Shown: positions 1-45,282 of the stretch, one piece after another
Layout of the letters: each line of letters opens with the position of its first letter
Numbering within the stretch: the first letter of the stretch is position 1
Assembly (NCBI GenBank): GCA_004292515.1
Contig: RDXB01000043.1
Location: 1-64,000 of the forward strand
DNA from: Oscillatoriales cyanobacterium
GTDB lineage: Bacteria; Cyanobacteriota; Cyanobacteriia; CACIAM-69d
Length of the DNA: 64,000 bases
Reading direction: 5' to 3'
Made by a program: the position numbers and the translations under genes
The notes under the pieces: model-generated
Seen by the model: the letters and a program-made list of their open reading frames with translations, nothing else
The model's database searches: none
What the model was told of the DNA's origin: nothing

Positions 1-92
1 CGCTCAATCTGCAAAAGGCGGCCAGTCCGGTCGTGTCAGCCTGTGGAGCGGATGAAGCCGACTTCGCCGCGATGAAGCAGGAAGCTTCCTGA
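1..92 (+). CDS. C-terminal tail of an unidentified protein (partial)
   Basis: One frame is open from the left edge (first full codon at base 3) to a TGA at 90-92, giving about 29 residues that end in FAAMKQEAS. The fragment is too short to assign to a family. It is reported because real coding sequence may run into the window here; it may also be a chance open frame. No terminator is evident between it and leuA. Confidence 0.3.
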   Translation, partial: LNLQKAASPVVSACGADEADFAAMKQEAS

Positions 93-179
93 TTGCTGCG
101 TTTGCTAGTCAATTGCAGCAATTGTTAGTGAATTAGTGACGGTTTAGTGGACTCCATGATCAACTGTCTCGATCGCCCC

Positions 180-15384: not shown

Positions 15385-15903
15385 ATGTTCGACGCATTTG
15401 CGAAGGTTGTTTCTCAAGCTGATGCTCGCGGTGCATACCTGAGCAACGACCAACTCGATGCTCTGAGCGCCCTTGTTGCTAGCGGTAACAAGCGCCTTGA
15501 TGTTGTCAACCGCTTGACCAGCAACGCTTCGACCATCGTCGCTAACGCTGCTCGCGCCCTGTTTGCTGAGCAACCCCAACTGATTGCTCCCGGTGGTAAC
15601 GCTTACACCAACCGTCGCATGGCTGCTTGCTTGCGCGACATGGAAATCATCCTGCGTTATGTGACCTACGCAACCTTGGCTGGCGATGCTAGCGTTTTGG
15701 ATGATCGCTGCCTGAACGGTCTGCGCGAAACCTACGTTGCTTTGGGCGTGCCCGGCGCTTCGGTGGCTGCTGGCGTTGCCAAGATGAAGGATGCTGCTGT
15801 GGCGATCGCTAACGATCCCGCTGGCATCACCCCCGGCGATTGCTCTTCGCTGATGTCGGAAGTGGCTGGCTACTTCGATCGCGCTGCTGGTGCAGTTGCT
15901 TAA
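15385..15903 (+). CDS. cpcB: C-phycocyanin beta subunit
   Basis: CpcB pairs with CpcA to form the alpha-beta monomer that builds phycobilisome rods on the thylakoid surface. The product has the standard 172 residues. The two bilin-binding cysteines are visible: Cys82 in [10 protein letters not shown] and Cys153 in PGDCSSL. Asn72 in the GGNAYTNRR segment is the site methylated in the family. Cys109 is an additional free cysteine that is often present. A good AGGAG site sits nine bases before the ATG. It is the first gene of the cpc cluster. Codon use is biased toward GCT/CTG/CGC, as expected for a very highly expressed gene. Confidence 0.99.
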
Positions 15904-15979
15904 TCGAAGCTGCCGTGAAGTCACTGAGAGTTTCAATCTTCTTTTGGCTTCAATCTAGTCTCGATTTATCGGAAAACAG

Positions 15980-16160
15980 GGTTTAACACCCCGCCCTTCA
16001 GGGCGTTTTAGGCTATGCATGGCCGCTAGGCTAGCGGTTTCAGTCTGTGGAGCGACCGTAAGACCAAAAGCCCTTCGAGGTGGAGGCAGGTGCAGTGAAG
16101 CAGAAACCCAAACTGCGAGGTTTGGGAATCCCCGTTCACTTACGGCGGGGAAGATGTCAA
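15980..16160 (+). mobile_element. IS200/IS605-family remnant (TnpB right end / omega-RNA scaffold)
   Basis: The cpcB-cpcA spacer is 291 bases. Its right part (16125-16160) reads GGGAATCCCCGT, a short loop, ACGGCGGGGAAG, then ATGTCAA. This is the GAATC-hairpin-GAGG-(T/G)TCAA layout of IS605-type right ends, which are also the 3' scaffold of TnpB omega RNAs (known from ISDra2). Upstream lie hairpins CGCCC/GGGCG (15992-16005) and CCGCTAG/CTAGCGG (16023-16037). A vestige of the TnpB C-terminus is readable through it. The right end at 16160 is well defined; the left end is approximate. No transposase remains, so it is a solo or non-autonomous relic. Confidence 0.7.
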
Positions 16161-16198
16161 CAACGCTAACTTTAGAGACACCTAACACGGGACTATGA
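16019..16198 (+). pseudogene. Vestigial TnpB C-terminus ORF overlapping the cpcA start
   Basis: An ATG-initiated frame of 59 codons runs from 16019 to a TGA at 16196-16198. That stop overlaps the cpcA ATG at 16195 as ATGA. The peptide begins MAARLAVSVCGATVRPK and contains ARFGNPRSLTAGKM. The CGA.VRP and GNPR.L.AGK features resemble degenerate C-termini of cyanobacterial TnpB proteins, whose last codons overlap the omega-RNA region. It lacks all nuclease motifs. It may be a simple relic, or it may now be translated between cpcB and cpcA and couple ribosomes to cpcA, which has only a weak ribosome site of its own. No clear Shine-Dalgarno sequence precedes 16019. Confidence 0.5.
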
Positions 16199-16683
16199 AG
16201 ACTCCGATCACCGAAGCTATCGCTGCTGCTGATTCGCAAGGTCGTTTTCTGAGCAATGCTGAACTGCAAGCTGCTCGCGGTCGTTTCGAGCGCGCTCAAG
16301 CCAGCATGGAAGCTGCTCGCACTTTGACCTCGAAGGCTGACAGCCTCGTCGGCGGTGCTGTGCAAGCCGTCTACAGCAAGTTCCCCTACACCACCCAAAT
16401 GTCTGGGAACAACTACGCTGCTGACCAACGCGGCAAGGACAAGTGTGCTCGTGACGTGGGTTACTACCTGCGCATGGTCACTTACTGCCTGGTTGCTGGT
16501 GGCACCGGCCCCATGGATGACTACCTGTTGGCTGGTTTGGCTGAAATCAACACCACCTTTGAACTGTCGCCCAGCTGGTATGTTGAAGCTCTCAAGAGCA
16601 TCAAGGCTAGCCACGGCCTGAGCGGTCAAGCTGCTAACGAAGCGAATACCTACATCGACTACGCCATCCAAGCCCTGAGCTAG
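16195..16683 (+). CDS. cpcA: C-phycocyanin alpha subunit
   Basis: CpcA is the partner of CpcB in phycobilisome rods. The product has the standard 162 residues, starting [20 protein letters not shown]. Cys84 in [10 protein letters not shown] binds phycocyanobilin. The C-terminus ([12 protein letters not shown]) is typical. The sequence just before the ATG has no good GGAG-like site (only GGGA close to the start), unlike cpcB and cpcD. Translation may therefore depend on ribosomes arriving from upstream, including the overlapping vestigial frame. It is co-transcribed with cpcB and followed by a strong terminator before cpcC. Confidence 0.99.
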
Positions 16684-41547: not shown

Positions 41548-42646
41548 CAACTTAGATAGCGTGCCTGGTGCGCTGCAAGCCAGGTTGTTGGGCCAGTTTC
41601 TCGATCGGGAAGCGGCGGTGGTCACAGAAGAAGATGAGGCGCTCTTAGATCTCGATCCGGCCGAGATTGACCGGGCGATCGAGCAATCCCTCGCCACCTA
41701 CAGCTACGATCCCGACGATGTTTTGATGATGGCGGAAGCCCTCGATCAATTCGACCAAAACGAGTTGCCCTTCAGCACGGACGTTGCAGCCGTTGCCCCA
41801 GCGCGATCGCTATCCCCCAGCGATTTATCGGTTGCTAACCCTATGCTCGACCTTGATGCTATTCCCGCGATCGATCAACGTTACCAAACGCTGCTGAAAC
41901 AGCGTCTGATGCTGGAAGCGGAACAGCGCCCGCCGCTCTTTCCTTGGGAATCGCCCGGCATGGCCTTGGACTACGGCGACACCTACGAAGACGCAGCAGC
42001 GATCGCCCCAGTTCCCGGCAACCCTTGGCTACGGCAGGTTTTGGCCCTGGATATCCCCACCACCTTGCCCGCCGAAATTGCCGATCGACTCCTGGCCGCC
42101 TGCCAAAGCGTCGCTGCCCAAACCCTCAAGGAAGGGGTCGCCCTAATCCGGGCCGTGGAAGAGCTGTTCCCCGCCCAAGAAGCCCTGTTTAATCAGCGCG
42201 CGGGCTGGGTTTTACAAACGGCCACGCCTGGTCGGACGGGCGATCGGCTCTCCTTGCCCTACCGTGACTTTGAAAGCAGCAACTCCGAAAACCAATTGAC
42301 CTTGGCCATGTTCGCTGCCCGCGAGCTGCTGAAGAAGTTGACAATCACCCTCAGCGCCAAGGAGCCAACCGATGCCCAAGAGTGGCTAGCCGATCAAGGG
42401 GCCCTGCGTTTAGAAGCTCGCTACGGCACACCCTCCGATCGCTCCGAACTGAATATCACCCTGCATTTACCCAGCAGTGGTAGCGCCACCCTCAGCGGCT
42501 CCCGGTCATCGGTGCAAGCCACGGGCACAGGGGCGTTGCGCCTGTCCATGTTGGATGTGCGACCGGGCGATCGCTTTGCCCTAGCGGTGACGACGGCCGA
42601 TGAGGTGGAACTGCCGCCCCTAACCTTCACGATCGTAGTGAACTAG
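41540..42646 (+). CDS. patU: PatU-like protein
   Basis: The 368-residue product overlaps the end of hetZ by eight bases. It begins MNSNLDSVPGALQARLLGQF and has an acidic segment (EEDEALLDLDPAEIDRAIEQ). IDQRYQTLLKQRLMLEAEQR followed by PPLFPWES near residue 130 matches my recollection of PatU proteins, which act with HetZ in heterocyst patterning. The C-terminal ~100 residues look beta-rich (ALRLSMLDVRPGDRFALAV), possibly a sandwich. In Anabaena the function is split between patU5 and patU3; here it is one gene, as expected outside heterocyst formers. The assignment leans on gene order, so I am moderately sure. Confidence 0.62.
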   Translation: MNSNLDSVPGALQARLLGQFLDREAAVVTEEDEALLDLDPAEIDRAIEQSLATYSYDPDDVLMMAEALDQFDQNELPFSTDVAAVAPARSLSPSDLSVANPMLDLDAIPAIDQRYQTLLKQRLMLEAEQRPPLFPWESPGMALDYGDTYEDAAAIAPVPGNPWLRQVLALDIPTTLPAEIADRLLAACQSVAAQTLKEGVALIRAVEELFPAQEALFNQRAGWVLQTATPGRTGDRLSLPYRDFESSNSENQLTLAMFAARELLKKLTITLSAKEPTDAQEWLADQGALRLEARYGTPSDRSELNITLHLPSSGSATLSGSRSSVQATGTGALRLSMLDVRPGDRFALAVTTADEVELPPLTFTIVVN

Positions 42647-43479: not shown

Positions 43480-45282
43480 CTAGAAGGTGGTGCGATCGCG
43501 GTTGGCGGCGGTGGCTCGTTCAATGGTGTCGGCCACCGTCACCGATCCCAAATCACCATCGGCTCGGGTGCGGAGGCTGAGGCTGTTGGTTTCCACCTCC
43601 TTTTCACCAACCACGGCCATCACGGGGATTTTTTCTTTCTCAGCGTTGCGAACAATTTTGCCCAGGCGATCGCCCGATTGATCAACCGTGACGCGCACGC
43701 CTGCCGATCGCAACTGAGCAGCGGCGGCCTCCGCAAAGGCGCGGAAATCATCGCCAACCGGTAGCAGCCGCACCTGTTCCGGTGCTAACCAAAAGGGCAG
43801 ATCACCGGAATACTGCTCAATCAGAATGCCAATGAAGCGCTCTAAAGAGCCAAAAAGCGCCCGGTGCAGCATCACGGGTCGCGACCGATCGCCCTCTTTG
43901 GTCACGTACTCAATATCAAAGCGTTCTGGCAGATTCAAATCCACCTGCAAAGTGCCGCACTGCCAATCTCGCCCGATCGCATCATGCAGCACAAACTCCA
44001 GCTTGGGGCCATAAAAAGCGCCTTCACCCTCATTGATCTGGTAGGTCAAGTTCAAGGCCGAGAGGGCCGACGAGAGCGCCGCTTCCAGCAAATCCCAAGT
44101 TTGATCGGTGCCGATCCGGTTTTCGGGGCGGGTTGAGAGCTTGATCGACACCTCTGCAAAGCCCAACTCTTTGTAGATATCCAGCACCAATTTCACAACC
44201 TCCTCGCATTCACGGGCCATATCCTCCTGGGCACAGAAGATATGGGCATCGTCTTGGGTGAAGTGGCGCACTCGCATCAGGCCATGCAACGTGCCAGATG
44301 GTTCGTAGCGGTGAACCTTGCCAAACTCTGCCATCCGAATCGGCAGATCGCGGTAGCTCTTGAGACCATGTTTAAACAGGGACACCGCACCCGGACAATT
44401 CATCGGCTTCAGGGCAAAGACTCGATCATCTTCGGTCACGGTGGTGAACATGTGATCTCGGTAATTTTGCCAGTGACCGGAGGTTTCCCAGAGGGATCGA
44501 TCCATCACGTCTGGAGTGTTGACTTCAATGTAGCCAGCCCGCTCTTGGCGCATCCGCATGTAGGCGATCAGCTGCTGGAACAGAGTCCAGCCTCTGGCGT
44601 GCCAAAAGACTGAGCCGGGAGCAGCTTCCTGAAAATGGAATAGATCCAGTTGGTTGCCCAGTTTGCGGTGATCGCGCTTGAGGGCTTCTTCCTTGCGGCG
44701 TTTGTGTTCGGTCAGTTGTTCGGGGCTTTCCCAGGCCGTGCCATAGATCCGCTGGAGCTGGGCTTTGGTGGCATCCCCACGCCAATAGGCTCCGGCGACG
44801 GTTTCCAGTTCGATCGCCTTGGGGTTAATTTCTGAGGTGTTTTCTAGGTGCGGCCCGGCACAGAGATCCCACCACTGGTCGCCCAGGTGATAGAGGGTGA
44901 TTGGTTCGGTTTTGATGTCGTCGAGAATTTCCAGTTTGTAGGGTTCCCCGATCGCCTCAATCCGGCGCTTGGCTTCCTCGCGGGACACCTCTTCACGAAT
45001 CACGGGCAGCTTTTTGTTGATGATTTTGATCATCTCTTTTTTGATGGCCTTCAACGCTTCTTCACTGAAGGGTTCGGGGCTATCAAAATCATAGTAAAAG
45101 CCGTTTTCGATCCAAGGGCCGATCGTCACCTGGGCTTTGGGAAACAGCTTCTGCACTGCCATGGCCATCACGTGGGATGTGGTGTGGCGAATTTTTTTCA
45201 GCGTTTCCGATTCGCTGGTTTTGGGTAGGGAAATTTTGGCCTCGTGATCGGCTGTGGGGCGATCGGACACTTGCTGAACCAT
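43480..45282 (-). CDS. thrS: Threonyl-tRNA synthetase
   Basis: ThrS charges tRNA-Thr. The 600-residue product lacks the N-terminal TGS domain but keeps the editing domain: HTTSH gives His33 and His37, and WWDLCAGPH the Cys and His pair. The class II catalytic core follows, with motif 2 near FGKVHRYEPSGTLHGLMRVR, Zn ligands in MNCPG and the later His residues (DDAHIF), and motif 3 in GSLERFIGILIE. The anticodon-binding domain occupies the last ~100 residues (EQVRLLPVGDDF). The ATG at 45282 (MVQQVSDRPT) is preferred to an upstream frame start at 45321. Confidence 0.96.
   Translation of the reverse strand: MVQQVSDRPTADHEAKISLPKTSESETLKKIRHTTSHVMAMAVQKLFPKAQVTIGPWIENGFYYDFDSPEPFSEEALKAIKKEMIKIINKKLPVIREEVSREEAKRRIEAIGEPYKLEILDDIKTEPITLYHLGDQWWDLCAGPHLENTSEINPKAIELETVAGAYWRGDATKAQLQRIYGTAWESPEQLTEHKRRKEEALKRDHRKLGNQLDLFHFQEAAPGSVFWHARGWTLFQQLIAYMRMRQERAGYIEVNTPDVMDRSLWETSGHWQNYRDHMFTTVTEDDRVFALKPMNCPGAVSLFKHGLKSYRDLPIRMAEFGKVHRYEPSGTLHGLMRVRHFTQDDAHIFCAQEDMARECEEVVKLVLDIYKELGFAEVSIKLSTRPENRIGTDQTWDLLEAALSSALSALNLTYQINEGEGAFYGPKLEFVLHDAIGRDWQCGTLQVDLNLPERFDIEYVTKEGDRSRPVMLHRALFGSLERFIGILIEQYSGDLPFWLAPEQVRLLPVGDDFRAFAEAAAAQLRSAGVRVTVDQSGDRLGKIVRNAEKEKIPVMAVVGEKEVETNSLSLRTRADGDLGSVTVADTIERATAANRDRTTF

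Follow-up and report, generated by a model that had tools for sequence, protein, structure and literature searches.

Why is the spacer between the two phycocyanin genes so long in this Limnothrix-like cyanobacterium, and what does the extra DNA do there? The cpcBA operon is strongly expressed. In the window analyzed here (the whole stretch of 64,000 nucleotides), its spacer measured 291 bp (15904–16194), whereas in 104 other cyanobacterial cpcB-cpcA loci parsed alike it was 39–199 bp long, with a median of 83 bp; the unusual length pointed out in a sequence-only reading was thus borne out. That reading had placed an IS605/TnpB-type right end with an omega-RNA-like scaffold in the spacer, as a plain relic, a domesticated mRNA element or a guide-like RNA serving a TnpB from another locus. 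An inserted element, 15970–16160, accounts for the extra length. We consider this element very probably a fixed, non-autonomous IS200/IS605 (IS1341/TnpB-type) miniature that is tolerated and drifts slowly. The comparison covered the genome that holds the window (G000), two genomes of the same genus (G001 and G002) and three of other genera in the same family (G003, G004, and G005).

The whole-genome search with the spacer found both parts of the query on contig 62 (C62), 1.3 kb apart. The right part matched at 43688–43833 with 77% identity. The left-end match (42538–42573) was weak alone (E 0.4), yet it was in register and was confirmed by alignment. An intact TnpB of 391 aa (P0001) was encoded between the two ends. 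This protein matched the ISDra2 TnpB (PDB 8bf8) over residues 3–372 (E 1.6e-77), and in this alignment its catalytic RuvC residues (D/E/D) stood opposite those of the ISDra2 protein. Its domains were HTH_OrfB_IS605, OrfB_IS605, and Cas12f1-like_TNB. The C62 copy was preceded by TTCAG, one base off the motif found before most copies. Because both matched parts flank the TnpB gene in C62, the spacer copy corresponds to the C62 element minus ~1.1 kb. A full-length copy with both ends, as sought by the sequence-only reading, was therefore present in the same genome. Its statement that no transposase or intact tnpB remains in the spacer also held, since there was no tnpB ORF and only a 15-codon trace of the C-terminus.

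The ends of the spacer element were placed by comparison with its relatives (Table 1). Most copies ended in TGTCAA and were preceded by TTCAT, TTTAT, or ATCAT. For a full relative in G002 (C10), the sister genome G001 provided an empty site, in which TTCAT was joined directly to ATTAATG without target duplication. By the same end rule, the window element runs from 15970, after TTTAT, to 16160, and the guide position starts at 16161. The element terminates in ...GATGTCAA at 16160. By analogy, the cpc copy itself would also have inserted 3′ of a short fixed target motif without duplication. Empty sites were sought for the miniature copies C25, C9, and C17 as well, and none was resolved; the single clean site was that of the full element C10. 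The end at 16160 proposed earlier was retained, and the proposed start at 15980 moved to 15970. Likewise, the right end was correctly recognized, while the left end had been missed and a complete miniature element is present. The cpc element and the full element C62 have subterminal palindromes at the left and right ends in common. Y1 TnpA is absent from the cpc element, as expected for a non-autonomous derivative, and we therefore filed it as an IS200/IS605 derivative and not as an autonomous member.

Table 1. Features of the cpcB-cpcA locus and of the inserted element in the window.
Feature	Positions	Strand	Basis
cpcB (phycocyanin beta subunit), upstream gene of the operon	15385..15903	+	ORF; 97% identical in same-genus genomes
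TTTAT, target / TAM-like motif directly 5′ of the element	15965..15969	+	TTCAT, TTTAT or ATCAT in most other copies; empty site in G001
Complete miniature (non-autonomous) IS200/IS605-family element, 191 bp	15970..16160	+	Dispersed copies of the same layout, measuring 194–198 bp; ends by analogy with empty site
Left end with two hairpins, 15979–15991 (GGGT/ACCC) and 15992–16005 (CGCCC/GGGCG)	15970..16017	+	Alignment with left end of intact element G000:C62; fold
Junction of left end and omega-RNA, tnpB body (~1.1 kb) missing	16012..16021	+	Comparison with C62 (1299 bp between the same ends) and other miniature copies
TnpB omega-RNA scaffold, 34-pair consensus, 32 pairs kept	16018..16160	+	Model R1, 142 bits, E 1.8e-38; pair count
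Remnant of tnpB 3′ coding end, AARLAVSVCGATVRP, 15 codons, frame lost further on	16022..16066	+	Alignment with C62 and its TnpB ending AAGLAVSVCGATVRP
Scaffold hairpin CCCAAAC/GTTTGGG	16107..16126	+	z −2.9; covarying helix across copies
Right-end hairpin (CCCCGT.../...GCGGGG)	16129..16151	+	Fold; C-G to U-A double change between orthologs
Guide position, CAACGCTAACTTTAGA, within the cpcA leader	16161..16176	+	Follows TGTCAA immediately; no other match in own genome at ≤1 mismatch
cpcA (phycocyanin alpha subunit)	16195..16683	+	ORF

The omega-RNA scaffold was identified with a covariance model (R1), which was built from an alignment of 24 right-end regions of other elements, with the window and its orthologs left out. 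The consensus fold of this alignment comprised 34 pairs; at 20 of them, both partners were changed in at least one of the sequences. R1 matched the spacer over the interval and with the score listed in Table 1, and in 100 other cyanobacterial loci it had no match within the cpc spacer; the covariance-model fold suggested earlier thus gave a clear result. The scaffold is conserved and covarying, and it lies at the 3′ end of the element, overlapping the 3′ end of tnpB. The guide slot follows directly beyond the right end (TGTCAA at 16160, then flank) as in other copies, an assignment by position. The motifs described in the sequence-only reading were found in place, namely the hairpins at 15992–16005 and 16023–16037 and a right-end hairpin with GAAGATGTCAA ending at 16160; two of the three correspond to helices of R1 and the third is a left-end hairpin. 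Single-sequence folding was unremarkable (spacer, z −1.4; scaffold, z −0.3) and so would have missed the scaffold on its own. The Rfam search gave no credible match.

The contig itself opens with another TnpB tail/omega-RNA, a divergent one that R1 also matched (window 14–112; 36.6 bits, E 7e-9). Several other contigs of the draft begin or end in such copies, and the assembly seems to break there. A weak match (27 bits, E 1.6e-5) was observed ~300 bp downstream of cpcA in the unrelated Rhizonema sp. PD37 (L112:2006–2109).

The spacer copy belongs to a dispersed family. Other copies in which the left end is joined to the omega-RNA start without tnpB were found in G002 (C25, C9, and C17), G001 (C100, orthologous to G002:C9), and G004 (C11), the last in another genus of the same family. 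In its own genome, the cpc copy was the only miniature found, and plasmid records gave partial matches only. Across nine miniature copies, all seven helices were kept as a group and 92% of the pair cells were standard. Both partners had changed in 13 pairs, compared with 5.2 pairs in shuffled controls and 1–4 in slid ones, although the alignment was fitted to the model and these pair statistics lean towards structure. The scaffold thus kept its fold as the family spread, which suggests that it may have been used in trans. A further copy, G002:C6:225568–225714 (L239), had the same miniature architecture with a diverged first helix. It may stem from a separate loss of tnpB in which the full omega-RNA was likewise kept. 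Together, the ends of C62, R1, the dispersed copies, and the empty site uphold the identification of an IS605/TnpB right end with an omega-RNA-like scaffold.

The insert occupied the same bases in G001 and G002 and is thus orthologous in all three compared genomes of the genus. The spacer of Limnothrix sp. CACIAM 69d (L065) did not differ from the G001 spacer, and the two records probably represent one assembly. In G003, G004, and G005, the spacers were 59–73 bp long and lacked the insert, and it was absent from ~100 other cyanobacterial cpc loci. As the insert is shared by the genus and absent from other genera, the insertion predates the split of the three species. The comparison with sister strains, proposed as a way to an empty site, therefore gave occupied sister genomes and insert-free spacers in the other genera; an exact empty site at cpc was not found among near relatives, where the nearest empty spacers were too diverged for base-by-base joining. 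A different origin, in which the sequence is an ancestral feature of the cpc spacer unrelated to IS605, was the alternative by which the sequence-only reading could have failed. Nothing was found in its favor. The ends are shared with full IS copies, including C62 in the same genome, and the sequence is absent from other cyanobacteria; this origin is refuted and retains hardly any probability.

Around the spacer, G002 and G001 (L036 and L037) differed at 6 of 1188 bases. Within the element, a patch of ~70 bp (spacer ~148–216) carried ~20 substitutions and one indel between these two genomes, and the rest of the spacer was identical. No gene-conversion donor for the patch in G001 was found in six family genomes.

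Two explanations give the insert a present role. The first is that its hairpins have been domesticated and now tune the processing or stability of the cpcB/cpcA mRNA. Fixation in three species inside a highly expressed operon is consistent with this, as are hairpins that stay paired despite divergence, including the compensated C-G to U-A change. However, the folding of the whole spacer was not unusually stable, two close species are strongly divergent in the ~70-bp patch, and the element is absent from other family members. We regard a domesticated mRNA element as doubtful.

The second explanation is a live guide RNA: the C62 TnpB would excise the scaffold from the cpcBA mRNA, and the complex would cut empty cpcBA alleles, so that the insert is kept in a polyploid cell and during natural transformation. 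Intact TnpB was present in G000 and G002, the scaffold lies in sense orientation within a strongly expressed operon, and a TnpB is able to process mRNA to omega-RNA in vitro (Nety et al., PMC10278001). The retention of 32 of the 34 scaffold pairs (31–32 across the three cpc orthologs), and of the seven helices with their double-changed pairs in the miniature family, also points this way. Against it, G001 retained the cpc insert, while no TnpB with more than 38% identity to P0001 was found there. Between the cpc orthologs, pairs were kept only slightly better than with random placement of the same substitutions (p 0.02–0.13), and without the right-end hairpin the remaining helices were not significantly protected (p 0.10–0.19). 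The 16-base guide had no other match at ≤1 mismatch in four genomes. At ≤3 mismatches it had 14 matches in G000, compared with 49 for the reversed control, and its first 20 bases had no exact match in viral contigs. The only two-mismatch site in its own genome (C70:228–243) was rejected as a second target, as the TAM was absent (AAGCG). The first 34 bases 3′ of the element were identical in all three genomes of the genus; this cannot be credited to the guide because the same bases form the cpcA leader. For the proposal of a guide-like RNA for a TnpB elsewhere, an intact TnpB does exist, but no target was found and G001 retains the insert with no close TnpB. A live guide is thus unlikely, and use of the guide by the cell is possible but unsupported.

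The plain relic, in the form of a fixed miniature, is the best supported of the three options. The sequence comparison shows that an ancestral element lost the body of tnpB, while both its ends and the entire omega-RNA scaffold were retained. Its site and the orthology of the copies show that it entered the cpcB-cpcA spacer 3′ of TTTAT in the ancestor shared by the genus, with Y1 TnpA presumably supplied in trans at that time. No IS605 TnpA was found in its own genome, so mobility now would need TnpA from outside. The sole protein with a Y1 transposase domain (Y1_Tnp) found there has 191 aa and appeared RayT-like by inspection (G000:C82:11117–11479, L034:1456–2031). Owing to the sense orientation, read-through would put the scaffold in the cpcBA mRNA, with the cpcA leader at the guide position. 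The cognate TnpB of G000 could still bind the scaffold and trim it from the mRNA, and the guide would have no target left because all three genomes of the genus are occupied. Today the element is most likely a tolerated, slowly drifting insertion with no function beyond toleration in the mRNA. Some selection may still act on it, as the structure is slightly better kept than random and the insert persists in three species.

Palindrome-associated transposable elements (PATEs) of IS605-type transposons are known, for example from Haloquadratum (PMC3119063). Like the cpc element, PATEs are short and non-coding, with near-terminal palindromes, no terminal inverted repeats, a deletion of the IS605-type core, and dispersed copies; the cpc element differs in the complete omega-RNA scaffold between its ends and in one copy lying inside cpcBA. 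The C62 element is a cyanobacterial IS1341-type (tnpB-only) IS with the same two ends, whereas the spacer copy has no tnpB gene. P0001 shows clear homology to the ISDra2 TnpB, for which PDB 8h1j is a second entry. The TAM-like TTYAT of the miniature and full elements resembles TTGAT of ISDra2. The ISDra2 scaffold, like the cpc scaffold, ends in ...TCAA just before the guide. Unlike ISDra2, the cpc copy has no tnpB in cis and its guide lies in an operon leader. A literature search of partial coverage found no paper on omega-RNA-bearing PATEs or on inserts in the Limnothrix cpcBA spacer, and an earlier description of such PATEs is possible.

A complete and structurally intact TnpB guide scaffold thus lies inside one of the most strongly transcribed operons of cyanobacteria, and the same genome has an intact TnpB gene at another locus. 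Among the most abundant messages of the cell, one should therefore include a guide RNA of the TnpB type. We speculated, as an idea of low probability, that miniatures carrying omega-RNA are a class of non-autonomous elements relying on TnpB borrowed in trans; the cpc copy would then mass-produce a guide RNA protecting its own insertion in a polyploid genome, and trimming by TnpB would tie the cleavage of the cpcB/cpcA mRNA to this protein. In the Limnothrix-like genus, the cpcBA spacer, which is widely used as a barcode, includes mobile DNA, and the locus is a natural test of the use of omega-RNA in trans and of the behavior of a transposon guide inside an essential mRNA.
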